Made by a program: the position numbers and the translations under genes. Below are positions 838 through 13,273 of a DNA stretch of 26,560 nt, piece by piece. The stretch spans positions 1 to 26,560 of IMG/VR virus record IMGVR_UViG_3300034199_000003. The stretch is one strand, 5' to 3'. This stretch comes from a virus. Under the pieces are notes generated by a model. That model was not told where the DNA came from. It did not search any database and saw nothing but the letters and a program-made list of their open reading frames with translations. Position 1 is the stretch's first letter. Every line of letters begins with the position of its first letter.

Positions 838-1149
838 TCAGGCGGCGATTTCGGCCAGCGCGGCGGCGACCAGGGCGTCAGAAGCCTTCGCCTTCACGCG
901 AACGGTCTCAACCAGCGTGACCTTGGAGACGCTGGCGATCTGCTCAGCGGTCAAGAGCTTGGCGACAGCCTTGGAATCGAGCGTGGTGCGCTCCGAGAGG
1001 CCCAGATTAAGGTAGCAGGAGAAACCCTCGATCTGCTCGACGCCGAGGAGCTTGAACTCCTTCTTGAGGGCGTCAACGGCGGCGTTGGCGGCATCGGCAA
1101 CGGCTTTGGCGGCGGCGTAGCGGTCGGCGAGAGTGTCGAAGTTGGACAT
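838..1149 (-). CDS. Hypothetical 103-residue protein in the replication block
   Basis: The start is placed at the ATG at 1149, which has GAGGA upstream and lies 28 nt from the predicted transcription start of promoter motif A; the frame stays open further upstream but would run through that promoter. The N-terminal 35 residues are Ala-rich and helical. They are followed by a compact segment containing LGLSERTTLDSKAVAKLL (residues 49-66) and KVTLVETVRVKAK. The S-R-T-x-L/I-D-x-K pattern followed by a short C-terminal strand recalls small phage proteins encoded next to YqaJ/RecT-type recombination genes, but I cannot assign a named family. It is the first gene of the leftmost leftward unit, ahead of the clamp-like gene, so a role in DNA metabolism is plausible. 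Confidence 0.75.
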   Translation of the reverse strand: MSNFDTLADRYAAAKAVADAANAAVDALKKEFKLLGVEQIEGFSCYLNLGLSERTTLDSKAVAKLLTAEQIASVSKVTLVETVRVKAKASDALVAAALAEIAA

Positions 1150-1183: not shown

Positions 1184-1212
1184 AACCTAAGACAGCCGTA
1201 TGCGTATGTCAA
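1184..1212 (-). promoter_or_regulatory. Promoter motif A (leftward)
   Basis: On the minus strand TTGACA (1212-1207) is separated by 17 bases from TAGGTT (1189-1184), a sigma70-like layout. The spacer begins TACGCATACG and so carries the recurring CGnATACG element. It lies 57 nt before the ATG of the 103-residue gene, between that gene and the stop of the Cys4 protein at 1218. Confidence 0.65.
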
Positions 1213-1217
1213 CTGGG

Positions 1218-1496
1218 TCAGTGACAAATTTTGTATAAAAATTCGACCAGCGTATTTCTCTTGGGCTCCCACGCATATTCAACACCGGGCCTTCTGCAGA
1301 TAGCGCAAGGGTATTCATTAATCGCAGAGTGGAGGTGCTGGCACCCGTCGCAGCCGCGGTCCCAAGGGTCTTTCCTACGTGCGTGTTGAACTCGCTGCCA
1401 CACATACCTGTACGCCTTCAGGACGTGGGGCTTCCAGATGCTCCAGAGCCGCAGCAGTTGCGCACGTATTTTTGTCATCCAAAAGCGTAACTTCAT
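1218..1496 (-). CDS. Small Cys4 (zinc-binding-like) protein
   Basis: The protein has 92 residues if translation starts at the ATG at 1496, whose first bases overlap the stop of the upstream zinc-ribbon gene (ATGA) and which has GGGAG eight bases away. Residues 1-42 are basic and aromatic with repeated W/R/K, suggesting an amphipathic helix that could bind nucleic acid or membrane. Residues 49-67 hold CDGC and CAIC, spaced like a small zinc knuckle. It is the last gene of the unit that starts with the SSB and polymerase. No named family is recognised. Confidence 0.7.
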   Translation of the reverse strand: MKLRFWMTKIRAQLLRLWSIWKPHVLKAYRYVWQRVQHARRKDPWDRGCDGCQHLHSAINEYPCAICRRPGVEYAWEPKRNTLVEFLYKICH

Positions 1497-1702
1497 TTTA
1501 TGCTCTCCCAAGGCGGAATTTTTTCACACTCGGCGCAAAAGTACCCAAAATGTCTACCTTTAGGGGTTTCTCGAAAGGTGAAGACGTTCCGCGTATGCGC
1601 ACTCTTACACAGCGGGCAAATGTCCGCGTATGGCATCGGTGGAACATGGCCTTCGGGCAGCAGATCGACCGGCTTCTTAGAGAACCTATAGCGAACAGTC
1701 AT
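1493..1702 (-). CDS. Small zinc-ribbon protein coupled to the DNA polymerase
   Basis: A 69-residue protein with CPLC (residues 29-32) and CAEC (56-59), the two knuckles of a zinc ribbon separated by about 23 residues. Its ATG overlaps the polymerase stop codon (ATGA) and its own stop overlaps the next start, so it should be made in step with the polymerase. Small zinc ribbons in phage replication operons usually bind nucleic acid or proteins; nothing here fixes the partner. The short length and motif are clear, the function is not. Confidence 0.75.
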   Translation of the reverse strand: MTVRYRFSKKPVDLLPEGHVPPMPYADICPLCKSAHTRNVFTFRETPKGRHFGYFCAECEKIPPWESIK

Positions 1703-3642
1703 TTTTCCATCCGCTCCGTAACAGTCGCCTCGGCATCCAGCGGCAACCCCGGTGCCCAGTCTGGTACGCGCCGCATGATCTCGACAATTTGTCCCATACG
1801 TTCATGGGCCGCGTTCTCGGGGGCCAGCGCGACAACCGAGTCGTAAATGTCCAAGATCAAATGCACGTCGGGCAGTTCGGCCTCAATCGCACGTTCGGTG
1901 GCAGTTAGGATATCTCTAGCAGACGCCTGGCAGATCAGTTCTAAAATTCCGCCGCCCCACGTCCTCTGTTCCAGCATCTTGCCGCGCCAAGCCCGCCAAA
2001 AGGTCAACTCGCCCTCCTCGTTGATGCGCGGCTTGTAGTGCAGAATCTTCCGGCCTGACGGGAGAATGATGTCAAGAACGTCTTCGTCGTTGCGCCAGAA
2101 GAAACTGACTTTGCCGCTGCAAGCTGGGACGACAGCGCCGCGGTAAGCCAGCGCTGCCCGCATAGACTCGCCCAGGCCCTTCCACATCATTTGTAGAGGG
2201 GCGTTGGCGTCGCGGTAGCCGGCGTGGATAGCAGCAACTTGCGAGTACGTCAGGTCGCGACGGTACTCGTAGGGAAGGTCTTTATCCGATTTGAACGAGA
2301 TAAACAGCTTGTCGATGCCTACGCCGTAACCTCCTGAAAGAACTACTTTTTTATAAGCCTGCCGTTCTTTGGGGTGGCTTTTCTTTGACAGCGCTGGGAT
2401 GCCAAGTGCAGCGGCGGCGGTAGCAGCATAAAGATCGTTGCCGCTGCGCAGAAGTTCCAGTTTCTGGTGGTCCCCGGCAAGCCATAGCGATTTACGCAGC
2501 TCAATATTTGACAGGTCTGAATCGATGACGCGAAAACCATCAGGCGCTTTGATTGCGCCCCGCAAAACATCTGACAGTTCTGTGTTAGTAAACTCGCCGT
2601 CCGGTTCCGCCGCCAGGCGCTTAATGACCTCACCAGTATCGTACTTACCGGAGGGCCTAGCGATATTAAACATGTTAACACCCTCGGAAGTGCCCCTTCC
2701 ACTCCGGGCGCCATAATAGCGGGTGGCATCCTGAAAAGTTCCGGCCACATGCCGGTCAAGCAGCGCTTGCGCCTTGGTCGGGGCCGAGCCGCCGCTGTCA
2801 AACAGGATCGTCAGCACTTGGTAAACGTCAAACGGCATCGTCTCCATATCGAGCCAGCTTTCGACCGTGGCCCGTTGCAGGTTTGGAATCGGCACGCCCT
2901 TTGACTTGCACCACTCCTGAATGCGGGCGCGCTGCGTGATCGCCGTTACAGCGCCGCCGGTGAAACCGCGCAAGTCGTTGGCAATCTCAAGCTCGATCTC
3001 GGCGCGCTTGGCCGCAATGCGCTCGCATAGCTCAATATCGAGCGGCAGGCCACGGGCATTCTTCGTCCAGGTGCGCCTCCATATCTCAAGCTCGTCGGGG
3101 CTGAGCGGCGGCAACATGCGGTCGACCGATTCCAGGCAATGAACGTCTTGCACGTTGTAATCCAGCAGCGCCTTGAACAGCGCGCCGTCTTCGTTGAAGG
3201 TTCCATCCTTGCGCGGCTTACAGGTGGCCATAACGAGGCGGTGGCCGTCCATTGACTTGCCTTGCACCCCAAGGGCCTCGCACAGCGCATCCAGGCCACC
3301 AGGAAGCGCCGCACGCTGCGCGCGGGCCATTGTGTCGTCAAGTTTGTTCAGGTCGAGGCCACAGGGGCCGAGCGTTGAGAAAATGACCGAAGCGTCAAAC
3401 GCGATATTGTGCGCAACGATGCGATCAGCCTCGGCAATCGCAGCCGTAAAGCTGGCCGTGGTGCTATTGCCGAGATGCGCGAGGCCCGGAATGTTACACG
3501 CCGAATGCACGACACGTTCGCCAGCCCATTTCCAGCAGGCCGTTGTGATCTGGGTTGACGGATCGACAGCGTACCGGCGCGCGCCAGCCTTTGTAAGGTC
3601 GCAGCGGGAACGTGTTTCCACGTCTAGCAGCAGCTTTTTCAT
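1699..3642 (-). CDS. Family A DNA polymerase with 3'-5' exonuclease domain
   Basis: A 647-residue replicative polymerase. The DEDDy proofreading domain shows Exo I at D7-x-E9, Exo II around N79 and D83 (HNIAFD) and Exo III at Y162-x3-D166. The polymerase domain shows motif A (DLSNIELR, D376 and E381), motif B with R427, K431 and Y439-G440 in the O-helix spacing of Pol I, and motif C at 599-602 as IYDS, with the catalytic Asp (D601) but Ser where most family members have Glu. There is no 5'-3' exonuclease domain, as usual for phage enzymes. The position equivalent to Pol I F762 is Leu435. It sits between two overlapping genes (ATGA at each end) and downstream of the SSB, and should replicate the phage genome in the host cytoplasm. 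Confidence 0.95.
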   Translation of the reverse strand: MKKLLLDVETRSRCDLTKAGARRYAVDPSTQITTACWKWAGERVVHSACNIPGLAHLGNSTTASFTAAIAEADRIVAHNIAFDASVIFSTLGPCGLDLNKLDDTMARAQRAALPGGLDALCEALGVQGKSMDGHRLVMATCKPRKDGTFNEDGALFKALLDYNVQDVHCLESVDRMLPPLSPDELEIWRRTWTKNARGLPLDIELCERIAAKRAEIELEIANDLRGFTGGAVTAITQRARIQEWCKSKGVPIPNLQRATVESWLDMETMPFDVYQVLTILFDSGGSAPTKAQALLDRHVAGTFQDATRYYGARSGRGTSEGVNMFNIARPSGKYDTGEVIKRLAAEPDGEFTNTELSDVLRGAIKAPDGFRVIDSDLSNIELRKSLWLAGDHQKLELLRSGNDLYAATAAAALGIPALSKKSHPKERQAYKKVVLSGGYGVGIDKLFISFKSDKDLPYEYRRDLTYSQVAAIHAGYRDANAPLQMMWKGLGESMRAALAYRGAVVPACSGKVSFFWRNDEDVLDIILPSGRKILHYKPRINEEGELTFWRAWRGKMLEQRTWGGGILELICQASARDILTATERAIEAELPDVHLILDIYDSVVALAPENAAHERMGQIVEIMRRVPDWAPGLPLDAEATVTERMEK

Positions 3643-3968
3643 TTGTCGTCTTTCTTCGGCGGGATCGGAGGCTCAACAGGGCCAACCCATTCGACCATGC
3701 ACGAATAATCATGGTGATGCGTGGGCCGCGTCTCGGACACAAGGCGGTAGCCTAGCGCCAGGTATTCGGGCAGGTCATCATGCCGGACGTGTCGCAGCCA
3801 TTTATATTCGACGGCGGGCGCCTGGAGCTTGACGACTTGGTCAAGGGCGTCAGCTATCCGCCGGAGGCTTATTGCAATCGACGCCCAGCCAGCCCCCGCG
3901 TCTATCATCGATACATCAGGTTCAAGGCGGTCGATTGTTTCCAGGTAAGCGTCATCTTCTCGGGACAT
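3639..3968 (-). CDS. Hypothetical 109-residue protein upstream of the polymerase
   Basis: The start ATG at 3968 has GGAG nine bases upstream, and the stop overlaps the polymerase start (ATGA). The first half is helical and acidic, with IAISLRRIADALDQVVKL (residues 31-48) as a probable helix. The second half holds aromatic residues, three consecutive His (residues 84-86) and a Pro-rich tail. No catalytic motif or known family is visible. The coupling suggests a companion of the polymerase, or simply a passenger gene. Confidence 0.75.
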   Translation of the reverse strand: MSREDDAYLETIDRLEPDVSMIDAGAGWASIAISLRRIADALDQVVKLQAPAVEYKWLRHVRHDDLPEYLALGYRLVSETRPTHHHDYSCMVEWVGPVEPPIPPKKDDK

Positions 3969-3992
3969 TTTTCAAACTCCGGGCGTGTTTGG

Positions 3993-4018
3993 AGACCGCG
4001 GTCCGAAGGCCACGGTCT
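3993..4018 (-). terminator. Stable cUUCGg hairpin after the SSB gene
   Basis: In the leftward transcript AGACCG pairs with CGGTCT, extended by further pairs with one wobble and one mismatch, closed by a C-UUCG-G tetraloop, one of the most stable RNA loops. It lies in the 74-base gap between the SSB stop and the 109-residue gene. No U-run follows, so it is more likely a processing or mRNA-stability element, perhaps allowing higher SSB than polymerase levels, than a full terminator. Confidence 0.45.
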
Positions 4019-4042
4019 GTATCGTTTCAGGTGCCGAAAGTT

Positions 4043-4783
4043 TTAGAAGGGCGCGTTACCCGAAGAGTTTCCGCCGCCCGGGTTGAACCCGGTGTCGGCT
4101 GCGGCGCCTGGGTTGAAAGCGCCCGCGCCCGGATTGAAGGAGGCTCCAGCGTCGGGAGCAAAACCGGCGTCGCCACTAGTCTTGATGTCGATGCCCTGCT
4201 CCTTGGCCATCTCCATAGCCGAGGCCCAATCCACGCCCGAGCCGCCGGTGGAAAGCTCGACGCCCTTGCCGGTGAACAATACGGAGTTGAGGTAGCAGCG
4301 GATGCCGACGTTATCGTTCATGCGCTTGGCGATGGCCAGCGCAACCGAAACGTAGTCGCCGTCATGCCAGAGTTTGCGGCCGCCCATCTGGAGCGCGGGC
4401 AGTTCCGACTGCGCGCCGCCGACGATCTGCTCGACTTTCGGCTGAAAGGTCGAGGAAGCGCGGAGGTACCAGTGCCCCTTGGCCCATTCCGGCGTCTTGC
4501 CATTCTTGTTCGGGATGTCGCCGTCCTTGATCGGAAACTCGATGCGCTGGAACGGGATGCCGCTCATATCGCGCGTCATGACCACCTTACAGGCGTCGAC
4601 GAATGGCTTGAGCGCCGGCTCCTCGTACCAGTTAGCTTTGGTTTTGGGGTAGCGGATGTTCAGGGAGTACGACGGCTTTTCGAGCGGTTTGCCGGCGAAG
4701 TCCTTCGTTTCCGGCTCGAAGAGACGCTGCGCGAAGACGGCGGTGCCGTTGAAGAGGAAAATGTTGACTAGCTCACGAGCCAT
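4043..4783 (-). CDS. DUF2815 single-stranded-DNA-binding protein
   Basis: A 246-residue protein of the DUF2815 family, phage proteins that accompany DUF2800 and family A polymerase genes and are related to T7 gp2.5-like ssDNA-binding proteins. Family features include an N-terminal strand region, KGHWYLRASS (around 103-112), a GDYVSVALAIAKR segment and the NVGIRCYLNSVLF stretch. The C-terminal 35 residues are a flexible Gly/Ala/Pro tail with three FNPG repeats, ending in NAPF. The Pro-Phe end recalls the C-terminal tip of bacterial SSB (DIPF), which recruits partner proteins, but the acidic residues are missing. It is the first gene of the unit containing the polymerase and follows promoter motif D by 62 nt. 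Confidence 0.85.
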   Translation of the reverse strand: MARELVNIFLFNGTAVFAQRLFEPETKDFAGKPLEKPSYSLNIRYPKTKANWYEEPALKPFVDACKVVMTRDMSGIPFQRIEFPIKDGDIPNKNGKTPEWAKGHWYLRASSTFQPKVEQIVGGAQSELPALQMGGRKLWHDGDYVSVALAIAKRMNDNVGIRCYLNSVLFTGKGVELSTGGSGVDWASAMEMAKEQGIDIKTSGDAGFAPDAGASFNPGAGAFNPGAAADTGFNPGGGNSSGNAPF

Positions 4784-4822
4784 TTGAGAGTTCCTGTTGC
4801 GAGTTGCTATTTACGACGGTGA

Positions 4823-4851
4823 AAAGTGACATGAGCGTATTCGGTTGTCAA
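4823..4851 (-). promoter_or_regulatory. Promoter motif D (leftward, SSB-polymerase unit)
   Basis: TTGACAACCGAATACG reads on the minus strand from 4851, 62 nt before the SSB start. The TTGACA overlaps the stop codon of the upstream 89-residue gene. At 17-base spacing the -10 position reads CACTTT, a poor hexamer, so this copy may need an activator. Sixteen bases (TGACAACCGAATACGC) are identical to motif E at 13258-13273. Confidence 0.5.
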
Positions 4852-5117
4852 TCGGATTTCGGTTCTTTTAGGGCTGCGATGGCGATCATGGCACTATAGA
4901 TGTCTGCATACATGCTCTCGCCATCATCGCGGTCGGTGCCGAAAGGGCGAGAAATTGCCGCTTCAACCATTTCCGGCGTCGGCTCTTTCGGCGCGATTAC
5001 ATATCCAGCAGCCTCAATGGCTGCGATGGCGGCGCGAGCTTTTCGCCGGGACGCCGGTGATGTCACGCCACTCCCGGAAATCGCCAGCCCTATCGTCTCG
5101 ATTATATCGGGGGTCAT
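4848..5117 (-). CDS. Hypothetical 89-residue protein
   Basis: A short helical protein. An Ala-rich helix (RRKARAAIAAIEAAGY, residues 24-39) is followed by a Pro-containing segment (VIAPKEPTPEMVEAA) and a C-terminal helix. The AAIEAAGYVIxPxEPTxEM arrangement is common in small phage proteins of unknown role. The start at 5117 overlaps the previous stop (ATGA), and it is the last gene of the lipoprotein-led group. Nothing indicates enzymatic function. Confidence 0.7.
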   Translation of the reverse strand: MTPDIIETIGLAISGSGVTSPASRRKARAAIAAIEAAGYVIAPKEPTPEMVEAAISRPFGTDRDDGESMYADIYSAMIAIAALKEPKSD

Positions 5118-5362
5118 TGGTCAGAGCCTTCTACATGATCCGCAACGCGGTCTTTTGCCTTTACGAGAAGGGCTATAGCCTCCGTGAGTGCCGGGCTGGC
5201 TCCAGCCTCTTCCACGGCGAGCATGGCCTGGCGGATGCATGTCTCTGCGGCGGTATACCAATTGAGATCAATGCGGGTCGGAACGCCATCGGGGCGCAGT
5301 TTCGGGCGCGGGCCTCCATTGAGAACCCATTCGTTTAATGCCGCTTCGTAATCAGGATTCAT
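5114..5362 (-). CDS. Hypothetical 82-residue protein
   Basis: A small acidic protein whose start at 5362 lies three bases after the stop of the 200-residue gene, and whose stop overlaps the following start. It contains an N-terminal PDYEAALNEWVLNGG segment and a central Ala/Glu-rich helix (residues 38-55). No motif or family is recognised. Frame conservation and coupling on both sides support it as a real gene. Confidence 0.7.
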   Translation of the reverse strand: MNPDYEAALNEWVLNGGPRPKLRPDGVPTRIDLNWYTAAETCIRQAMLAVEEAGASPALTEAIALLVKAKDRVADHVEGSDQ

Positions 5363-5365
5363 TTC

Positions 5366-5968
5366 TCAGTCCTTGGCTTTCGTGGGGAGCGGGGGAAGCG
5401 GCATCCAATGCGTAGGGGGTGCGCTACACAGGTTTTTGTCACTGACGGAATGCCAGCCATAGGTTGACGCGAATGTCGCGCACATCCCCGATCCATCGTC
5501 ATAATCATTGAGCGTGTCGCGTACTGCGATCCTTCTCCAGCGTCCGGTTCCCGTACTATGCCCTGTTGTTAGGATGATGATCGTCCCGTCTTTCTTGATT
5601 TGATCAAGCGCCGGATCGTCCAGCGTCCTCCACCCATCCGATACGGGAGCGGGGGAGAGGCGGGACTTTCCTTCCGCGTAAACGGCGCGCAATTTGTCGT
5701 TCGGAGGTGCGGGGTTGTCGTAGTCTGGCGCGGGGGAGAGGTGAGAGGCGGCGGAACCGTATGCGGCTCCCAAGCCTTCAATGCCTTGGTTTGGCCCCTG
5801 ATAAGCTGCGATCTTCTTGTGCAATCTCTCGATTTCCGCCTCTTGCTCACGGATGACGCGGGCGGCTTCGCACACGGCTTCCCTATCGAGGTCGTCCCAT
5901 AAATTCCCGTCAGCGTAGTCTCGCGCCATCGCCTCTAGTGTGATGGCGGCGATCAGGTCTTTGCTCAT
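5366..5968 (-). CDS. DUF551-like small phage protein with coiled-coil N-terminus
   Basis: The 200-residue protein has an N-terminal helical part (residues 1-55) with a heptad-like segment (AARVIREQEAEIERLHKKI) and a Pro/Ser-rich linker repeating HLSPAP and RLSPAP. A C-terminal domain beginning near GWRTLDDPAL ends in THWMPLPPLP. The W-M-P-L-P ending and the W-near-start layout match DUF551-type modules in phage and prophage proteins, whose function is unknown. The start at 5968 overlaps the preceding stop (ATGA). Confidence 0.7.
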   Translation of the reverse strand: MSKDLIAAITLEAMARDYADGNLWDDLDREAVCEAARVIREQEAEIERLHKKIAAYQGPNQGIEGLGAAYGSAASHLSPAPDYDNPAPPNDKLRAVYAEGKSRLSPAPVSDGWRTLDDPALDQIKKDGTIIILTTGHSTGTGRWRRIAVRDTLNDYDDGSGMCATFASTYGWHSVSDKNLCSAPPTHWMPLPPLPTKAKD

Positions 5969-6261
5969 TTGGTTTTCTCCAAGGCGGCGCGTGCGGCGTT
6001 CAATGCAGATCGCGTTTCACCCGATAACTGATCAGGGTTTTCGTGGACTTCTACCAGCGCCTCTCTCAGCGCATCCCGTTCCGCCGTAAGCGCATCAACG
6101 GCGGCGCGGAGGGTTTCAAGCTCGGTGACTAGGGCGGGGATAGCCTCCGCAACGTCGTGAAACGTACTTAACGTCGAGAACGGCTTCACGTAAGAATCAT
6201 TCTCGGAAATGCGCGTCGCCGCTTTTGCCAGTGCTTTTAAGGATGATAGGTCTAGGGTCAT
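5965..6261 (-). CDS. Hypothetical coiled-coil protein
   Basis: The start is taken at the ATG at 6261, which overlaps the lipoprotein stop (ATGA) and has AAGGA at normal distance; an in-frame ATG further upstream would overlap the lipoprotein gene needlessly. The 98-residue product is mostly helical, with a clear coiled-coil stretch (LVTELETLRAAVDALTAE, then RDALREALVEV) in the middle. Such proteins are common passengers of phage early operons. No function can be given. Confidence 0.7.
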   Translation of the reverse strand: MTLDLSSLKALAKAATRISENDSYVKPFSTLSTFHDVAEAIPALVTELETLRAAVDALTAERDALREALVEVHENPDQLSGETRSALNAARAALEKTK

Positions 6262-6584
6262 GGGATGGTCCTTGGAGCCGGTATGCAATTCCTTTCGTAG
6301 AACGCCCTATCTTCCGCGGGGTTCGCGTCTCCAATGCGATCAAGCTCCCACCGATAGCGGAAAGACGAGTCGTCAATGATCCCGTTTGGCGTGAGAATAA
6401 GCTTCTCAATGGATGCGTACCACGCCACCCAGCAGTGTGAGCCAATCTTGTAAACTCCAGACTTCCTTGCCTCAGCACCACGGAACAAGATCACGGTTCC
6501 GACGCTTGAATTGCTATATTGCACTGGACCGCTGTCACAGCCTGCTACGGCCAACAGGGCGAGAATTGCGAGGGCTTTGGTCAT
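6258..6584 (-). CDS. Putative phage lipoprotein
   Basis: The 108-residue product begins with MTKALAILALLAVAGC, a short signal peptide with a lipobox (LAVAGC) and lipidation Cys16. Asp17 follows, which under the Lol +2 rule known from enterobacteria favours retention in the inner membrane. The mature part is about 90 residues with two further Cys (near GSHCWVAW and ERNCIP) that could form a disulfide. AGGAG precedes the start. It heads a group of small leftward genes and follows a structured intergenic region. Lipoproteins outside the lysis cassette often block superinfection; a spanin-like role is less likely because no lysis genes are adjacent. Confidence 0.75.
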   Translation of the reverse strand: MTKALAILALLAVAGCDSGPVQYSNSSVGTVILFRGAEARKSGVYKIGSHCWVAWYASIEKLILTPNGIIDDSSFRYRWELDRIGDANPAEDRAFYERNCIPAPRTIP

Positions 6585-6797
6585 GGTGTTCGTCTCCTAT
6601 AAAAGTGCGGGGCGCGTCTCGGCGCCTTACGGTGTGCCTAGTAGACAGCATGACCGTGAACGAGAACGGTCCAGGGCACACACCCCTATCCCTTGGATTA
6701 TCAGAATGTTGCAAGGAGCGCCCCAGCTTCGGTAGGGGGGCTACCGCTGTGCCACTAGTACGCTCCAGCCCATGGCTGACCCAGCTCCGCAGGAATC
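6585..6797. ncRNA. Hairpin-rich intergenic region, candidate structured RNA
   Basis: This 213-base gap has no credible ORF but is packed with inverted repeats. They are GGCGC/GCGCC (6611-6615 with 6622-6626); GTGTGCC/GGCACAC (6632-6638 with 6675-6681) enclosing GACCGT/ACGGTC (6652-6657 with 6666-6671); CCTTG/CAAGG (6691-6695 with 6712-6716); GGAGCG/CGCTCC (6715-6720 with 6761-6766) enclosing CAGC-GGTAG/CTACC-GCTG (6724-6749); and CAGCC/GGCTG (6766-6778). Most can form at once. No U-tract marks a terminator, and no tRNA T-loop or anticodon arm is evident. The strand is unknown. It lies in the 3' region of the DUF2800 message and before the lipoprotein, so it may be a UTR element or a separate RNA. 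Confidence 0.45.
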
Positions 6798-7793
6798 TCA
6801 GTAAACCAGTTTAGCTTGGCCGCCAGGTTTGTAGGCCAACTGCTGGACCAATTCTTTACCTTGGCTCCCCATCTTCTCGGCGGTGGCCGGCGAGACGGGG
6901 TCGACGCCATTGACGCCGAAGGCCGCCATCAATTCCGTCACCGCAAGGCGTTCGTCGCTCCATTTACGGTGGCTCGACGTTACGCCAACTGAAGCGTCAG
7001 GAACCTGGGCGCCGGAAGCGAAGCGCTTCATGATGTCTTTTTCCAGGTTCTTGCGGAAATCTTCCAAACCGCGCAGCACGCGCAGCATCCGTACGGCTGC
7101 CTCGTTGGGCACTTCACCAGGCGTCATCGTGACCGCGGTCATGATAAACGGCAGCATTTCCTGCGTGGCGCCGCAGACGCCGAAAGCGGAACAGTACCGG
7201 CAATGCCTGCCTGGCTTCGGGCCTTCGCCGCCGAGGCCGCGCTTGACCGCTTCAAGCACGAGTTCCCGGTGCGCCTCGACTTCCTCAAGCGTGACGATCC
7301 ACTGCTTGACATCCGACTGGTCGCCAGACGTGCGGCTGTTCGGTTGAACGATAACAAGGCGGTAGTGCTTCGACGAGCCAAATTCTTCAAGCGCGGCGGC
7401 GGCGTAGGTCAGCAGCTGCTTGTTCTGGTACGCGCTGACATCACTCGCGCCATTCTTGTAGTCGAGCAGCGTTGTGATATCGGGCTGGGGCTTAAAAACG
7501 TCAACGGTTCCAAAAACATCTTTAGATAGGTGCACCCTTACCTCAGCTTTCACTGAGCCCCCTAGCTGCCGAACGTAGTCAAGGACCAGATCAATTCCGA
7601 ACAGTACTTCTTCGGGCTCCTTGTCGTGTTTGGGGCTACCCAAAAGAGCCGCCTCGATCAGCGCATGAACACGCGTCCCTTCGCGAGACGCATCGCTATC
7701 CGAGTTGGGCAGCGTTGCGCCAGCAATTGCGGAATATGGGCATTCTAACCACCTAGCTGCACTGCTAGGAGCAAAAACCGCATGCTTAGCCAT
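6798..7793 (-). CDS. DUF2800 RecB/Cas4-like nuclease with Fe-S cysteines
   Basis: A 331-residue protein of the DUF2800 type, a PD-(D/E)XK nuclease family of phages. RecB/Cas4 signatures are in order: N-terminal Cys in WLECPYS (C18), His43 in the REGTRVHALIE helix, Asp98 in GTVD, the D111-Y-K113 catalytic pair, and the QxxxY motif (Q126, Y130). Cys198, Cys201 and Cys207 (CRYCSAFGVC) with C18 reproduce the four-Cys arrangement that holds a 4Fe-4S cluster in AddB and Cas4. It should cut or resect DNA ends during phage recombination or replication. DUF2800 and DUF2815 genes usually co-occur, as here. The start at 7793 has AAGGGA upstream. Confidence 0.85.
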   Translation of the reverse strand: MAKHAVFAPSSAARWLECPYSAIAGATLPNSDSDASREGTRVHALIEAALLGSPKHDKEPEEVLFGIDLVLDYVRQLGGSVKAEVRVHLSKDVFGTVDVFKPQPDITTLLDYKNGASDVSAYQNKQLLTYAAAALEEFGSSKHYRLVIVQPNSRTSGDQSDVKQWIVTLEEVEAHRELVLEAVKRGLGGEGPKPGRHCRYCSAFGVCGATQEMLPFIMTAVTMTPGEVPNEAAVRMLRVLRGLEDFRKNLEKDIMKRFASGAQVPDASVGVTSSHRKWSDERLAVTELMAAFGVNGVDPVSPATAEKMGSQGKELVQQLAYKPGGQAKLVY

Positions 7794-7807
7794 CTACACA
7801 TCCCTTG

Positions 7808-8359
7808 TTAAGCTCGTTTAAAAACGTCGAAGTCCCCGAAGTTAACCGCTGTAAAAGCTCGGTAAGCCGCAGCAGCGTCTTCTTCATGCAAGAAGAGCCC
7901 AAGAGAGATCGTCTTATTGTGCATGCTCACAGATGCGTACCATTTCTGTCTGCTACATACCCAACTAACACCCTTATGCTTACTGGTTCCTCGGTCACTC
8001 CGCATATTTCTCTTGTTTTCTAGAGAAGAGGCTTCTCGTAAATTAAGCCATCTGTTGTCATGGCGAATCCCGTTCACGTGGTCTATTTCATCAGCGGGCC
8101 AGTTCCCTGTTTGTAAAGCCCACACTACTCTATGCGCGAGATACCGGGTCCCGAATATGCTCCCATGGGGGTACCCGTTGGATTTAATACACATAAGTGC
8201 TTCTGCGCCCGCAAAATGGGTATTCCAAACTGCGTAAGCTCTTTTAGTCGCGAATAAGTTCTCCGGCCTGCGTTTCCAGTAGAGCTTTCCGGTCCACGGA
8301 ACATAGATAAGGAGAGCCCTCAAAAGCTCAACATCTATGCTTTTGAGGGCTTTTTTCAT
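7808..8359 (-). CDS. HNH endonuclease with AP2 DNA-binding domain (homing type)
   Basis: A 183-residue protein. The HNH core spans about residues 76-115: HR (76-77), D93-H94 in EIDHVNG, then DNRWLNLR and Asn115. It is followed by an AP2-like domain (residues 126-160, SKHKGVSW...KWYASV...ISLGLF) and a short tail. This architecture is typical of free-standing homing endonucleases in phages, which cut genomes lacking the gene and spread into them. It sits between two replication genes without disrupting either, and its base composition is visibly less GC-rich than its neighbours, consistent with insertion. The start (8359) overlaps the previous stop (TAATG) and is followed at once by a 13-bp inverted repeat inside the coding sequence. 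No strong ribosome binding site is seen. Confidence 0.88.
   Translation of the reverse strand: MKKALKSIDVELLRALLIYVPWTGKLYWKRRPENLFATKRAYAVWNTHFAGAEALMCIKSNGYPHGSIFGTRYLAHRVVWALQTGNWPADEIDHVNGIRHDNRWLNLREASSLENKRNMRSDRGTSKHKGVSWVCSRQKWYASVSMHNKTISLGLFLHEEDAAAAYRAFTAVNFGDFDVFKRA
8315..8356. repeat. Perfect 13-bp inverted repeat in the 5' end of the HNH gene
   Basis: AGCCCTCAAAAGC (8315-8327) and GCTTTTGAGGGCT (8339-8351) are exact reverse complements separated by 11 bases. On the plus strand a T6 run (8351-8356) follows directly, the layout of an intrinsic terminator, but no rightward gene precedes it. In the leftward HNH message the hairpin begins about eight nt into the coding sequence, where it could hinder translation initiation. 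Both arms encode N-terminal residues (KALKS and ELLRAL). Confidence 0.75.
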
Positions 8360-8850
8360 TAGGCTTTGCCGCCGCCCTGCCGATAAGCGGCAATCAAGGC
8401 GTCGTCGGGCAAGTCATGGACGAGCTTGCCGAGGAACTCCTCCTTGGTGACAGACGGCGAGAGGCCGAATGCTTTCTGAATGACCCACGCGAACACCTGG
8501 GCCTCCCCGTGCTGCGCCGAGAGAGTAGTAAGCAACTCCTTCAGCTTGATGACGGCGAGGCGTTCAGCGGGAGCCGCACCGGGGTTGAAGGCAGCTTCGA
8601 CGGGGGCCGGAGCCGCACCGAAGGGGTTTTCAACCGGGGCTTCCGGAGCCGCGCCGAAAACAACAGTCTCGGGCTGGATCGGGGCGGGCGCCTCGGCCTT
8701 CTTGCGGGTCTGGCGGGTCTTCGGCTGGGTCGGTTCGCTGGAAGTACTGGTTGGCGACTCCTCAGACGGGGGCCGGTTACTGTCGCGCATGGAGTCAACG
8801 GCCTCGAACAACTCTTCGAGAGTATCGGCGGAAACAGTGAACTTAAACAT
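8359..8850 (-). CDS. Hypothetical protein with FNPGA-type linker
   Basis: The 163-residue protein has three parts. There is a short N-terminal module (MFKFTVSADTLEELFEAV), a long Pro/Ala/Thr-rich linker (about residues 24-98) containing NPFGAAP and AAFNPGAAPAE, and a helical C-terminal domain (about 99-160) with an amphipathic helix and a DLPDDALIAAYR ending. The FNPGA element also occurs repeatedly in the tail of the SSB-like protein (4043-4783), hinting at a common partner or shared ancestry of the tails. It is the first gene of its unit, 55 nt after promoter motif B, with GAGG before the ATG. Function unknown; a replication accessory role is an inference from context. Confidence 0.75.
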   Translation of the reverse strand: MFKFTVSADTLEELFEAVDSMRDSNRPPSEESPTSTSSEPTQPKTRQTRKKAEAPAPIQPETVVFGAAPEAPVENPFGAAPAPVEAAFNPGAAPAERLAVIKLKELLTTLSAQHGEAQVFAWVIQKAFGLSPSVTKEEFLGKLVHDLPDDALIAAYRQGGGKA

Positions 8851-8882
8851 TTGTAGCCTCTTTCGATGATTTGACAGTCACA

Positions 8883-8911
8883 TTCTTAGGACGGGCGTAA
8901 TCGCCTGTCAA
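8883..8911 (-). promoter_or_regulatory. Promoter motif B (leftward)
   Basis: On the minus strand TTGACA (8911-8906) and TAAGAA (8888-8883) are 17 bases apart. The spacer starts GGCGATTACG, a one-base variant of the recurring element, and ends CCCGTCC, like motif C. The start of the 163-residue gene lies 55 nt downstream. There is no terminator between the helicase stop (8930) and this site. Confidence 0.65.
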
Positions 8912-8929
8912 GGTGCTTTTCGGATAATT

Positions 8930-10375
8930 TTACGCCTTGTGGAGAACGCCGTGCTTGTCGACCGCCCCTTGGGCGCACCAGCCGCGGCGGGCGTCATAGA
9001 CGCAAAAAAGGTGCTGGGCGTCAAGCGGATACGAGGGGGAGAACCAGCGCACCTGGCCCGACGCGGTCGGAATTATCCACAGGTGGCGGCCAATAAGATA
9101 GGAAGGCGACCCAATCGGCTTCACCCACTTGGGTTTGCCGTGGCGCGACAGCAACGAACCCTCGGCGGCGCCCATGCGCAAATCGCCGCCGACAGTGCGT
9201 TCAAGCGAATCAAGCTTTTCGCCAGCATCCGCTTCAGCGCTGTCTATCTTGCCGCTACCGGCCGCGCGCCGCTTTGGCGGCTTGATCATGTCGAGCGCGC
9301 CATGTCGGAGGATATTGCCGCCGAAATCGACCACAACGCAATCGTTGGCAAATTCCGATAGGCGCGCGCCGCGCCCCAGGCTTTGCGCAAACAGAACGCT
9401 AGACTTCATGGGCCTACACAAGGCTATAAAATCAATATCGGGCACGTCGAATCCGGTCGAAAACATGGCTACGCTGAGGAGTATTGGAAACTCACCACGC
9501 CTGAACGCTTCTATGTTGACGTTTCTTCCGGTGTTGCCGGTGTGAACGGCCCGCGCGTCTATGTTAAGCTTCTTGCACTCAACTTCCAACGCGTTGGCGT
9601 GCGCTATATCGCAGGCAAAGACCAACGCCCGCGTGCGGCCCTCTTCTTTCATAGCCTCGACGAAGGCGGCCGCATGCGCCGGAGCGAGCGCCACGCCGCG
9701 GTTAGTCAGTTCGTTACCGGACCACTCGCCTTGCGAATTGGTCTTCAGGCCCTTGGTTTCAATGTTCGGCGCCGCTGCCGCTACCGCACGTAGCGGCTTG
9801 ACATAGCCATCCTCAAGCGCCTCCAGGAAGCCGTAGCTGTAGACCTTTTTGCCGAAAGTGTTCTCAAGGGAGCCGGTCCCGTCCTCGCGCCAGCCTGTGC
9901 CGGTCAAGCCCCGAAACCACCCCTTGGATAGCGTATTCTTGATCTGGAGGTACTGGCTGGCCGAACCGTCCTTGTGCGCCTCCATCCGGGCGCGGTGGAC
10001 TTCGTCAATGATGACGACGCCCACGTCTTTGAAATAGTCGAGCCGGTTGGCGATTGTGCCGACGCTGCCAACAGTCAAGCGCCCGAAGACAGCCGACTCG
10101 CCAAGGCCCGCGCTGCAGATGCTCGGCGACAACCCCAGCCATTTACACGCCTTGGCGTTCTGCTTCACCAACTCCTCAGTGTGAGCGATGATCAGCACCC
10201 GGCTGCGCGGGAGCGCACGCTGGGCCAGCGCGGCCATTACTAGCGACTTGCCCGAGGCGACCGACATTTCAGCATATGCAAAGCGGTCAGTCGCACAGGC
10301 GAGCGCTTCAACTGCTTCCTTTTGGTGGCTTCTGAGTTCCACGCTCAAAATCTGTTCATCAATTTGCAAGTCCAC
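8930..10375 (-). CDS. DEVH-box superfamily 2 DNA helicase (RadD-like)
   Basis: The protein has 481 residues from the GTG at 10375. The frame is open further upstream, but that part would overlap the divergent gene and its promoter and has no helicase similarity. Visible motifs are ELRSHQKEAVEAL near the N-terminus (Q-motif region), Walker A SVASGKS (residues 38-44), DEVH (124-127), GLTGTG (motif III-like), and in the second RecA domain FSTGFDVP with QSLGRGAR (331-338, motif VI). The layout resembles RadD/SSL2-type helicases of phages. It would unwind or remodel DNA using ATP during phage replication. A C-terminal region of about 100 residues has no assigned domain. The GTG start has only a weak GGGG upstream. 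Confidence 0.9.
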   Translation of the reverse strand: MDLQIDEQILSVELRSHQKEAVEALACATDRFAYAEMSVASGKSLVMAALAQRALPRSRVLIIAHTEELVKQNAKACKWLGLSPSICSAGLGESAVFGRLTVGSVGTIANRLDYFKDVGVVIIDEVHRARMEAHKDGSASQYLQIKNTLSKGWFRGLTGTGWREDGTGSLENTFGKKVYSYGFLEALEDGYVKPLRAVAAAAPNIETKGLKTNSQGEWSGNELTNRGVALAPAHAAAFVEAMKEEGRTRALVFACDIAHANALEVECKKLNIDARAVHTGNTGRNVNIEAFRRGEFPILLSVAMFSTGFDVPDIDFIALCRPMKSSVLFAQSLGRGARLSEFANDCVVVDFGGNILRHGALDMIKPPKRRAAGSGKIDSAEADAGEKLDSLERTVGGDLRMGAAEGSLLSRHGKPKWVKPIGSPSYLIGRHLWIIPTASGQVRWFSPSYPLDAQHLFCVYDARRGWCAQGAVDKHGVLHKA

Positions 10376-10394
10376 GAGAACGCCCCACCGTAAT

Positions 10395-10424
10395 TTGACA
10401 CGCGCATACGATTGCGCATATGGT
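10395..10424 (+). promoter_or_regulatory. Promoter motif F (rightward) at the divergent junction
   Basis: TTGACA (10395-10400) is followed by CGCGCATACG and, at 18-base spacing, TATGGT (10419-10424). The GTG of the RHH gene lies 50 nt downstream of TTGACA. The spacer and -10 region are made of the tandem repeat listed separately, so the site may be autoregulated. No clear promoter for the leftward helicase was found in the same 75-base gap. Confidence 0.55.
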
Positions 10425-10425
10425 T
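10402..10425 (+). promoter_or_regulatory. Tandem 12-bp repeat, candidate operator
   Basis: GCGCATACGATT is followed directly by GCGCATATGGTT, two 12-mers differing at two positions. They cover the spacer and the -10 region of promoter motif F, just upstream of a ribbon-helix-helix gene. RHH proteins commonly bind tandem sites as pairs of dimers, so this is a plausible operator. The link is inference. Confidence 0.45.
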
Positions 10426-10450
10426 GCAAAACGCAAGATAGGAAAATGCC

Positions 10451-10654
10451 GTGACAAAAATAGATGAAGTTCCGCCCTTTGTTCCGACGCCGGCAACGGC
10501 GGAAGAATCGGGGCCGATGGTCGTCATGACCGTTCGCATCGCGCCTAAGACACGGGATGCGATCAAGGCGCTGTACCGCCAGGAACTCAGGTTCAACAGC
10601 GTCTCCCACGTTATTCAGGTGGCCGTCGATCAGTTTCTGGCCGCGCAGGGCTGA
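10451..10654 (+). CDS. Ribbon-helix-helix (CopG/Arc-type) regulator
   Basis: A 67-residue protein starting at a GTG with AGGA eight bases upstream; the nearby ATG at 10446 would give only two codons. After a Pro/Glu-rich N-terminal arm of about 22 residues comes an RHH fold: strand VVMTVRIA (24-31), helix A KTRDAIKALYRQ (33-44), turn around FNS, and helix B SVSHVIQVAVDQFLAA (50-65). RHH proteins bind DNA as dimers through the strand and often repress their own promoter. It is the first gene of the rightward operon and lies beside a tandem repeat, which supports autoregulation. Confidence 0.75.
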   Translation: MTKIDEVPPFVPTPATAEESGPMVVMTVRIAPKTRDAIKALYRQELRFNSVSHVIQVAVDQFLAAQG

Positions 10655-10655
10655 C

Positions 10656-10991
10656 GTGGCGTACAGCGAAGACTCGCTTCAGTTTTATGCGGCGAAGCGC
10701 TTTCACGACGCATGTCAAAAGACCGTTTGGTTTCACCCCGCAAACGGTGAGAAGCGCGACAAGATCACCGCCGCCAAGCTCAAGAAAATGGGCGTCCGGT
10801 CTGGCGTGGCCGACTTCATCCTGTTGTGCCGGGGGCTGCCGATTGCCGTCGAACTGAAGACGATCACTGGCCGCCAGTCCGAGAACCAGAAAGGCTTTCA
10901 GTCCGCATGGGAAGCCGCAGGCGGTGTCTACGTGGTTGTGCGGACGCCTGGAGAAATTGACGGCCTTGTATTCCGTTTTCTCCTCGACTAG
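10656..10991 (+). CDS. VRR-NUC domain nuclease
   Basis: A 111-residue stand-alone VRR-NUC protein, the PD-(D/E)XK branch found in FAN1 and in many phage replication modules. The start is a GTG at 10656, one base after the RHH stop codon, with AGGG upstream. Family motifs are H27-x-x-N30 (WFHPANGE), the basic AAKLKKMGVRSG segment, G50-V-A-D53 with the active-site Asp, and E66-x-K68 in VELKT, followed by a Q-rich segment ending in FQ (81-82). Such enzymes act on branched or flapped DNA, so it may resolve replication or recombination intermediates. It fits the helicase, polymerase and DUF2800 set. Confidence 0.9.
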   Translation: MAYSEDSLQFYAAKRFHDACQKTVWFHPANGEKRDKITAAKLKKMGVRSGVADFILLCRGLPIAVELKTITGRQSENQKGFQSAWEAAGGVYVVVRTPGEIDGLVFRFLLD

Positions 10992-10994
10992 CGG

Positions 10995-11023
10995 TTGACA
11001 AGCAAATACGGCTGTCCTAATTT
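10995..11023 (+). promoter_or_regulatory. Promoter motif C (rightward)
   Basis: TTGACA (10995-11000), a 17-base spacer beginning AGCAAATACG and ending GGCTGTCC, and TAATTT (11018-11023) form a good sigma70-like promoter. The GGCTGTC part is shared with motif A. The ATG of the next gene lies 50 nt after TTGACA. It gives the last four genes of the rightward operon an extra start. Confidence 0.7.
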
Positions 11024-11050
11024 TACGCATTGACAAACGAGGATCTCCCC

Positions 11051-11290
11051 ATGCGCATCAAAGTGGACACCGGCGAAAGCAGCCTCGTGAAAGAGAGCGT
11101 GAAAATAGCCGGTATGATCTCTAGCGCTGCTGACGGCTACACGATTGACGGCGTTATTAACGGCATGGGTATTGTTCTCGCGCATTTCCTCTGCGACCGC
11201 ACTGAGGAGGACCGCAAAATGGTTCTAGACGCTTTTGTCGAGGTTACCCGCCGCAATATACGCCAGTTCGCTGGTGAGCACACCGCATAG
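11051..11290 (+). CDS. Hypothetical 79-residue protein
   Basis: The start is the ATG at 11051, with GAGGA eight bases upstream and directly downstream of promoter motif C; upstream in-frame TTG codons fall inside the promoter. The protein is helical, with a central segment (DGYTIDGVINGMGIVLAHFL, residues 29-48) and a charged C-terminal helix (EEDRKMVLDAFVEVTRRNI). The pattern is common among small phage proteins, but no family can be named. It leads the DUF6378-like, Cys-rich and GcrA-like genes. Confidence 0.7.
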   Translation: MRIKVDTGESSLVKESVKIAGMISSAADGYTIDGVINGMGIVLAHFLCDRTEEDRKMVLDAFVEVTRRNIRQFAGEHTA

Positions 11291-11302
11291 GAAAGAATCA
11301 AT

Positions 11303-11572
11303 ATGGCCCACCACACTGATATCTTGATGAATACCGCACACACGCTCAGAGACCGAACCGAGCAGTATGGAAGCCCCTCCGAGACATACCAGCGCGCGGC
11401 GGCGATTGCCTCGATCACGACCGGAAAGCAGTTGACGCACTACGACATTGTCATGGTCATGCATGCGGTCAAGATGTCGCGCGTGGTGACCGGGCGTGGC
11501 AATCTTGACCACTACGAGGACGCTATCAATTATCTGGCGTTCGCGGCTGAGTTCGCTACCGAGGAGGCGTAA
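11303..11572 (+). CDS. DUF6378-like protein (all-alpha, MazG-like arrangement)
   Basis: An 89-residue protein with the DUF6378 pattern: an N-terminal helix leading to RTEQYGSPSETYQRAA (residues 18-33), a middle helix THYDIVMVMHAVKMSR (45-60), and DHYEDAINYLAFAAE (69-83). The D...EDxxNYLA ending and the K-x-x-R in the middle resemble the compact helical folds of small phage nucleotide-related proteins. The biochemical role of the family is unknown to me, and a nucleotide-pool function is only a guess. AGGA precedes the ATG. Confidence 0.75.
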   Translation: MAHHTDILMNTAHTLRDRTEQYGSPSETYQRAAAIASITTGKQLTHYDIVMVMHAVKMSRVVTGRGNLDHYEDAINYLAFAAEFATEEA

Positions 11573-11575
11573 GCC

Positions 11576-11812
11576 ATGATTAGCCCGGGGGCTGCTGAAT
11601 GGATCACCGTAGCACTAGCGCGGCGCATTCATGACTTGGGCGTGATTGGAACATGCAGCAGCCCCCGGTGCATGTGCAGTCCTGATAACGAAGGATGGCC
11701 GCATGCGGCTGATTGTCACTGCCACGACCGAAAGCACGCCATGCTTGAAATGGCGAAGATTAACAACCGCTTCGCCGCTGAGGTGAAGAAAGCAATGGAC
11801 GCCACGCCATGA
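11576..11812 (+). CDS. Cys/His-rich small protein
   Basis: The 78-residue product starts at the ATG at 11576, with GAGGAGG inside the end of the previous gene. It carries Cys27, Cys32, Cys34, Cys47, Cys49 and His50 (SSPRCMCS and DCHCHDRKH), enough ligands for one metal site, followed by a helical C-terminus. Its stop overlaps the GcrA-like start (ATGA), so the two are coupled. No named family; metal binding is inferred from the ligand cluster. Confidence 0.7.
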   Translation: MISPGAAEWITVALARRIHDLGVIGTCSSPRCMCSPDNEGWPHAADCHCHDRKHAMLEMAKINNRFAAEVKKAMDATP

Positions 11813-12210
11813 CCAGGGAAGAAGACACGATTATCCGGATGCGGGCCGAAGGATTCTCGACTACTAAAATTGGCGCGGTTCTTGGAATTAGCCGGAGCGC
11901 AACGTGCGGGCGCATGCACCGCATGAGGGCGCGCGGCATCGTGTTCAAGGAGGTGGTGGTCAAGTGCCCTGACGGCCGCTCGCGCACCGAGAAAACGCAC
12001 CCCAGGCCGCTGGCGCCCAAACCGCCGGCGGGCGCCGCAGTGATTGGCCGCGTCTCGATTATGGACCTGGCGCCTTGGCATTGCCGAGCGGTCACGCCGC
12101 AGTACGACAGCACTCTTTATTGTGGCGCCTTGAAGCGCGACGGCAGCTCGTACTGCGCTGACCACCACCAGCTTTACTACCTAACGAAGCGGCCTCAGAC
12201 GCCAGCGTAG
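11809..12210 (+). CDS. GcrA-like cell-cycle regulator homologue
   Basis: A 133-residue protein with both parts of GcrA. The N-terminal helix-turn-helix (residues 1-43) contains EDTIIRMRAEGFSTTKIGAVLG and SRSATCGRMHRM, the GcrA pattern ending in SRxAVIGKxHR. The C-terminal sigma-interacting part contains CRAV (C92), LYCG (C105) and SYCADHHQLYY (C116, H119), matching GcrA's FCG...SYCxxHxxxAY ending. In Caulobacter GcrA binds sigma70 domain 2 and activates promoters, helped by GANTC adenine methylation. A phage copy could redirect host RNA polymerase to phage genes or alter host cell-cycle genes. It is the last gene of the rightward operon and overlaps the convergent tail gene by 16 bp. Confidence 0.9.
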   Translation: MTREEDTIIRMRAEGFSTTKIGAVLGISRSATCGRMHRMRARGIVFKEVVVKCPDGRSRTEKTHPRPLAPKPPAGAAVIGRVSIMDLAPWHCRAVTPQYDSTLYCGALKRDGSSYCADHHQLYYLTKRPQTPA

Positions 12211-13223
12211 ATGAAGACGTAGGCCGCGATTGTCGGCTGCACGAGAGAGAACAGGGTTCCGCTGCCGGTGTTCTGCGTGGTGATGCCGGTTGTGGCGCTA
12301 TTAACGGTAATGCCTGTTACCGCGGTAGCGGTTGCTGTCGTTGGGGTCCAGTAGAACGACGCCCCGCCGCCGTCTTGGATTGTCGACGCCGTAACCGTTG
12401 CGCTATAGTTAACAAAGTACACGCCGGCCCCAGGCCCGTGAGCGTGGCCTGGATCGGTGACCCCGTGGGTGTGGCCTGGGTCAGTGACGCCATGGTTATG
12501 GGCCGGGAGGTTCACCACGCCAATTGCGGAGCTTTGTACGCCGCCAGTTGTGCCGATAGTGTAACCTGTCAGCACTCCAGCCGCTGTGCCGCCCATGTTG
12601 TCGGCGCCCGCTTTGATACGACCCCTACAGTCAGGGACGTTGAAAGTGGTCGAGCCGTCACCAGTGCCGTATGTCGTGCCGATAGCCGCGAATAGGGCTG
12701 CGTAAGTTGTGCGGCTGATTGCCTGACCGTAGCAGATTTGCCAGCCGGTTTGCGGCGCCGGCGATGCACTTTCTTTGTAGTCGCCGACCGTGAAAGCGGC
12801 GGACTGCACTCCGACTTCAATAATGTTCGTGCCGTCAGAAGTGATGGGAAACACGACACTCCGCGGGCAGATAACCGACGTGCCACCGCCGCCGGACGAA
12901 ATAGTGACTGTGAACGCGCCAGAGGTGTAATTGGCGACAAGCCAGATACCGGTGATGCCCGAGGGTATCGTAATCACGACATTTTGAACCAGGGCGCCGC
13001 TAACGGCCAGGATAGCCGGGATGTAGGAAAGACTCGTGAGCGGCGAGGACACGACAGGGAACGTGCTCGTCAGGACAATGGGGCCGCCTGCGTAGGCCGC
13101 TAGGTTGATAGGCTGCACCCCCGATACGGCCGCATCGGTTATCGAAAAGTTCGAGTTGACGGGCACGTTCCAGAGCGAGCTGGCGAAAACGGGCAGCGCG
13201 AGATTTTTATTCGGGGTTGCCAT
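12195..13223 (-). CDS. Tail-collar domain protein (fibre or spike tip)
   Basis: A 342-residue protein. The N-terminal 150 residues are beta-rich and carry Gly-rich turns (SSGGGGTS). Residues 158-203 form a phage tail collar domain (GWQICYGQAISRTTYAALFAAIGTTYG..., FNVPDCRGR). The segment after it contains HNHGVTDPGHTHGVTDPGHAHG spread over 242-263, seven-residue repeats rich in His that in related tips bind metal ions between trimer chains. The C-terminus (IAAYVFIYAGV) is the usual end of collar/Mdp-type proteins. It probably forms part of a host-binding fibre. GAGGA precedes the start; promoter-like motif E is 44 nt upstream. Its 3' end overlaps the convergent GcrA-like gene. Confidence 0.88.
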   Translation of the reverse strand: MATPNKNLALPVFASSLWNVPVNSNFSITDAAVSGVQPINLAAYAGGPIVLTSTFPVVSSPLTSLSYIPAILAVSGALVQNVVITIPSGITGIWLVANYTSGAFTVTISSGGGGTSVICPRSVVFPITSDGTNIIEVGVQSAAFTVGDYKESASPAPQTGWQICYGQAISRTTYAALFAAIGTTYGTGDGSTTFNVPDCRGRIKAGADNMGGTAAGVLTGYTIGTTGGVQSSAIGVVNLPAHNHGVTDPGHTHGVTDPGHAHGPGAGVYFVNYSATVTASTIQDGGGASFYWTPTTATATAVTGITVNSATTGITTQNTGSGTLFSLVQPTIAAYVFIYAGV

Positions 13224-13257
13224 TGGCCTGTATCCTCGTGCCCGTGGGCGTGTTATG

Positions 13258-13273
13258 CGTATTCGGTTGTCAG
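13258..13273 (-). promoter_or_regulatory. Regulatory motif E upstream of the tail-collar gene
   Basis: CTGACAACCGAATACG on the minus strand shares 15 of 16 bases with motif D and lies 44 nt before the tail-collar start. No good -10 hexamer occurs at 16-18 base spacing (CGCCCA at 17), so on its own this would be a weak promoter. It may need an activator or may be a protein-binding site. Confidence 0.45.

Follow-up and report, generated by a model that had tools for sequence, protein, structure and literature searches.

The Arc operator in Pant is an imperfect inverted repeat between the -35 and -10 elements of a sigma70 promoter, and Arc represses by covering the promoter. Arc of phage P22 is an RHH protein of 53 residues (PMC4803016). 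In L5 and the Cluster A phages, one short repressor site occurs in many genomic copies, one of them inside the early promoter, and each phage clade has its own variant of the motif (PMC6550527). In T7, the small DNA-binding protein Gp5.7 acts as a repressor of those promoters on the phage genome that host polymerase uses (PMC5569994).

The DNA analyzed here, called the window, is a 26,560-base virus fragment with six copies of a 16-base motif, TTGACAnnCGnATACG. The system predicted from it resembles P22 Arc in having a very small phage RHH-like protein and an inverted-repeat operator within a sigma70 promoter. It differs in the operator sequence, in having about 6-12 operators per phage contig against one locus for Arc, and in its candidate protein, which is outside all Pfam families and whose binding is predicted. 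Many copies of one short site are also a feature of mycobacteriophage L5. The stoperators of L5, however, are asymmetric, lie mostly away from promoters in one orientation along transcription and block elongation, whereas the present sites are mostly promoter-embedded and partly palindromic; in addition, no tyrosine integrase was found in four contigs of the group (G001, G002, G020 and G022, which may be incomplete). With T7 Gp5.7 the system would share the shut-off of host-RNAP early promoters, but the fold of Gp5.7 is winged-HTH-like and the protein works through both DNA and RNA polymerase, whereas here the candidate is RHH-like and the repeated operator is defined. A GcrA-like gene in the window recalls the GcrA/CcrM promoters of Alphaproteobacteria. 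GANTC is the CcrM methylation site. Binding of Caulobacter GcrA depends on N6-adenosine methylation by CcrM (PMC3667746).

The window and its six motif copies

The gene set of the window is that of a tailed phage with its own replication functions (Table 1). Megablast of the window gave zero matches, so that none of the sequenced phages is closely related to it; MW202675, the nearest structural relative, is without the motif. Searches of the window for tRNAs and Rfam families also gave zero matches, and a generic promoter scan did no better than on shuffled sequence (7 versus 4.7 in shuffles). A long inverted repeat at 8314-8355, AGCCCTCAAAAG...CTTTTGAGGGCT, followed by T's on the + strand, extends over the initial codons of the gene for the HNH endonuclease, 7808-8359(-).

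All six copies named in the original prediction were recovered in their places by pattern matching, three of them exact and three with one mismatch. At this stringency simulated sequences gave a mean of 0.037 matches (maximum 1 in 300), letter-permuted patterns a mean of 0.026 (maximum 2 in 500) and the reversed pattern none. These controls, together with the profile counts in relatives given below, rule out a chance origin of the six copies. A two-mismatch match at 5773 is intragenic and looks like chance.

Start codons follow the end of the 16-mer at about 35-53 nt, rather than at the 44-62 nt first reported. The -10 boxes proposed at 17 bases in the 1212, 8911 and 10995 copies are present, but each agrees with TATAAT at only three of six positions. 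Since 17-base TARnnT boxes recur in relatives, these three weak boxes are credible. Two further copies had been described as lacking a good -10. Of the remaining three copies, 10395 has TATGGT at 18 bases, 4851 has the weak box CACTTT at 17, where orthologues of its gene have TACCTT, and 13273 is the only copy in the window without any. One copy had also been seen to overlap a stop codon, which proved correct. The 4851 copy contains, within its TTGACA -35 hexamer, the TGA stop of ORF 4848-5117(-); the coding end and the promoter thus share bases.

Table 1. Features of the window and, for the motif copies, corresponding sites in related contigs
Feature	Position	Strand	16-mer	Remarks	Sites in relatives
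Operator/-35 copy TTGACATACGCATACGGCTGTCT	1190..1212	(-)	1212-1197, exact	-10 TAGGTT at 1189-1184; upstream of gene 838-1149(-)	Orthologues with motif at G001 58960, G002 33574, G022 9577
Operator/-35 copy TTGACAACCGAATACGCTCATGT	4829..4851	(-)	4851-4836, exact	Weak -10 CACTTT at 4828-4823; upstream of ssDNA-binding protein gene 4043-4783(-)	Orthologous promoters at G001 64025, G022 4516, G023 1072
Operator/-35 copy TTGACAGGCGATTACGCCCGTCC	8889..8911	(-)	8911-8896, 1 mismatch	-10 TAAGAA at 8888-8883; upstream of gene 8359-8850(-)	Orthologues preceded by sites in G001 (65649/65621) and G022/G023
Helicase	8930..10372	(-)		PHROG 16, E=1e-65; divergent from RHH-like gene	
Operator/-35 copy TTGACACGCGCATACG	10395..10424	(+)	10395-10410, exact	-10 TATGGT at 18 bases; between divergent helicase(-) and RHH-like gene(+)	
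RHH-like protein, 67 aa	10451..10654	(+)		Leading candidate regulator	
Operator/-35 copy TTGACAAGCAAATACGGCTGTCC	10995..11023	(+)	10995-11010, 1 mismatch	-10 TAATTT at 17; upstream of operon 11051-12210(+), which ends in GcrA-like gene	Position (downstream of VRR-NUC gene) occupied also in G001 627, G002 45088, G020 1339
GcrA-like protein	11809..12210	(+)		PF07750, E=3.6e-10; alternative regulator	
Weakest copy CTGACAACCGAATACGCATAACA	13251..13273	(-)	13273-13258, 1 mismatch	Starts CTGACA; no -10; between tail-fibre gene(-) and next gene	Oppositely facing copy in G001 6886, G002 50817, G020 4835; 2/3 with -10 at 17
Replication-type genes				RusA, DNA polymerase, ssDNA-binding protein, exonuclease, HNH, helicase, VRR-NUC-like, GcrA-like	
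Structural genes	from 12.2 kb onward				

Distribution in related contigs

Relatives were recruited with the polymerase, helicase and RHH proteins as queries, and also by searching for the extended motif. The motif was also found in further contigs of the same uncultured phage group (six by count; those named are G001, G002, G015, G019, G020, G022 and G023), where reversed-pattern controls gave 0-2 matches. G001 (67,094 bp) contains seven exact copies plus five others with at most two mismatches. Both ends of G001 (L022, L025; L039) recur at 100% identity in an independent contig, G014, which joins them with 19 extra bases; G001 is thus close to a complete circularly permuted genome.

A profile of 23 positions built from 34 seeds and used at a threshold of at least 12 bits gave 57 matches in seven non-redundant contigs, against 3-5 in controls made with the reversed profile, permuted columns and Markov sequence. 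The strong sites are nearly all intergenic, ahead of early and replication genes, though 87% of the DNA is genic according to gene calls made with a simple script. The structural half of G001, from 7 to 48 kb, has no site. For each of the 1212, 4851, 8911 and 10395 copies, orthologues of the downstream gene are preceded by a site in several relatives. Tandem copies spaced 25 and 28 bases occur in G002 and G001. Degenerate copies are found directly before terminator-like GC-rich hairpins and T-runs at G001 50084-50106(-), G022 15535-15557(+) and G002 24735(+).

Three relatives, G003, G004 and G005, are without the motif. G003 (L081-L082) has a dispersed palindrome of its own, CGTTGACnnTCAACG, for example at 5834, 9577, 15469, 21185, 24130 and 31680 (-), and TTGACANNCRACG has 26 matches there at up to one mismatch versus 1 in the reversed control. 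This element lies mostly on one strand, 20-65 nt ahead of start codons and mostly without a -10; it could also fold as an RNA hairpin. A different repeated promoter, TTGACAgcGTACTGGcaTGTGTGTACGTT, stands ahead of small unrelated ORFs at G004 36387, 36084 and 37831 and at G005 50605.

Promoter geometry and inverted repeat

At 21 of the 48 strong sites TAnnnT lies exactly 17 bases after TTGACA, and at every other spacing from 8 to 35 it is found 0-2 times. Judged by this fixed spacing, TTGACA is a genuine -35. Thirty-two of the 48 sites are no more than 130 nt upstream of a same-strand start, and 22 have a -10. Since the sites occupy orthologous places ahead of orthologous genes, they are by sequence host sigma70-type promoters (TTGACA, 17 bases, TARnnT) and are conserved as such.

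The conserved part extends past the -35 and consists of GACA, CG and ATACG, with CGnATACG as the inner core. TGTC is present in the mirror position at 11 of the 48 sites (about 0.2 expected from base composition). The core is often completed to an imperfect inverted repeat, GACAnnCGnATACGnnTGTC, the right half being present in only part of the sites. Many promoters have this repeat in their spacer, and it occurs there in the reversed orientation as well.

The candidate repressor

Since the repeated word lies inside host-type promoters and relatives keep it ahead of early genes, it most likely serves as the binding site of a switch protein, encoded by the phage, that shuts out host RNA polymerase. 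The most likely binder, and the leading candidate, is the RHH-like protein. Its predicted structure, a middling model with a pLDDT of 74, has an extended segment followed by two helices (32-44 and 51-66). The best Foldseek matches are ParD2 and the PrpA RHH, with a probability of 0.8-0.9 but weak (E>0.7). The protein has no Pfam or NCBIfam match above cut-off, and a search for cultured relatives gave zero matches. Every motif contig in which the locus is covered has the gene, and a motif copy always lies ahead of it. Conversely, all eight viral loci found with the gene are on motif contigs, and the gene is absent from G003-G005. This co-occurrence follows one clade and so represents one evolutionary event. 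Two features expected of an Arc-like RHH regulon were found: an operator ahead of the candidate repressor's own gene, and an inverted-repeat operator between -35 and -10. The sites ahead of the RHH-like gene itself are without TGTC.

In an otherwise unrelated contig, G017 (L042:9014-9205), which is one of about ten chance-level matches, a 50-aa RHH gene is immediately preceded by TTGACAGCCGTATACGCGTGTC, a near-perfect palindrome that is followed 18 bases on by TACACT. The strand VVLAVRV of this RHH resembles VVMTVRI. As support for an RHH reader, the palindrome is suggestive only.

It is possible, but unlikely, that another phage protein reads the operator with the same repression of early promoters, either the Cro/YdaS-like HTH protein of G001, G002 and G022 or one encoded outside the 26.5-kb fragment. 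Inverted-repeat operators are usual for Cro/YdaS-like HTH proteins. The HTH gene is common to these three motif-bearing contigs, and one G001 protein matches YdaS. However, no motif copy lies ahead of the HTH gene in the contigs examined, and G020 did not yield the gene (G023 and the window being fragments).

A divergent control region with two operators is found at G001 48128-48219 (L024:8128-8219) and G002 22813-22902. One operator is reversed inside a TTGACA-17-TAAGTT promoter, and a DnaA-box-like sequence, TTATCCACA, lies between the two. The region is a possible origin or control hub. An 80-aa protein encoded beside these operators (G001 48256-48498) was dropped as a regulator; it was not found in G020, G022 or G023.

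Alternatively, the motif might bind an activator, either GcrA-like or of another kind, which overlaps the -35 and from there brings in host RNA polymerase. The position of the GcrA-like gene in the operon behind the 10995 copy, its presence in most motif contigs and the poor -10s of several copies would fit such an activator, but on balance it is improbable. The suggestion that copies without a good -10 depend on an activator has lost ground, as the orthologous promoters of the 4851 copy have a -10 and at the 13273 junction relatives have a complete promoter in the opposite orientation. A weak -35 is usual in activator-dependent promoters; the near-perfect -35 found here argues for repression and against activation. 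The GcrA-like gene is also kept in the motif-less G004 and G005, and GANTC, which the motif itself does not contain, occurs at the sites at 0.23 per kb versus 1.6 per kb genome-wide. Both findings make a GcrA-like reader less likely, and GcrA was dropped.

Operator or sigma contact

The original prediction that the motif is linked to promoters yet goes beyond an ordinary one was borne out; it had pointed to either a shared DNA-binding regulator or an unusual sigma contact. Three lines of evidence favor the regulator and speak against the sigma contact. First, the operator is reversed inside two genuine promoters, G001 48197(+) and G002 22880(+). Second, copies without the leading TT (GTGACA, TCGACA, TAGACA, CTGACA) have a -10 in 0 of 11 cases, whereas 22 of the 37 sites that keep TT have one (Fisher p=4e-4). 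As these TT-less sites never have a -10, the conserved unit is the GACA..CGnATACG site and not the -35. Third, 19 of the 25 TTGACA-N16-18-TAnnnT promoters in the group contain the core, and two have it reversed. The motif-less G003-G005 keep such promoters with other spacers, the core being in none of those listed. The combination of a core in both orientations, loss of TT and the same -35/-10 with other spacers fits a regulator site, and the CGnATACG core is, on these sequence patterns, a predicted operator and not a sigma contact.

On the same grounds we dropped a purely sigma-read promoter class, in which host sigma reads the 16-mer, or the CGnATACG spacer tunes the promoter, with no regulator involved. 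TTGACA in most copies and the exact 17-base spacing speak for it, but the core occurs in copies that have no -35/-10, and it matched only 5 times in 150 genomes of the one rhizobial order tested, fewer than the reversed-pattern control. Such a class is decidedly improbable.

A host-encoded regulator exploited by the phage is the least probable reading, very improbable in spite of a look-alike palindrome, TTGACATTCGGATACGAATGTC, upstream of a gene in a Bradyrhizobium MAG, since that MAG has 7 matches versus 11 in the reversed control, the extended motif matched only 8 times in 84,980 genomes and no excess is seen in the order represented by 150 genomes, so that a host regulon was dropped and the reader is probably phage-encoded.

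Proposed mechanism and implications

With moderate confidence, we infer binding, repression and its timing as follows. A phage-encoded repressor, likeliest the 67-aa RHH-like protein acting like P22 Arc, would bind the operators laid over the -35 and spacer of host sigma70-type promoters and so keep host RNA polymerase off the early and replication promoters. It would also repress its own promoter. Repression could govern when and how strongly early genes are transcribed, or end early transcription later in infection. As no tyrosine integrase was found in the four contigs named above, which may be incomplete, prophage immunity is a less likely role than a switch in the lytic cycle.

Some copies lie near terminators or in non-promoter places and are unexplained by promoter repression. 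A broader and rather doubtful proposal is that the -35 hexamer, together with an extension specific to the lineage, is recognized by a hitherto undescribed family of RHH-like phage repressors, which covers early promoters and may act as a roadblock at non-promoter copies, such as the tandem pairs and the terminator-side copies. Related phages would then have different operator words, as G003 suggests.

The DNA word, the regulon and the protein family look new, while the mechanism would be classical and of a known kind. The RHH-like protein would be a compact candidate DNA-binding part outside every family library searched, and phages of the group, with their early regulons, could be recognized by the operator. 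Together, the operator, the geometry of the promoters and the candidate repressor give a testable regulatory map for phages known only from metagenomes, in which early-gene control is otherwise invisible.
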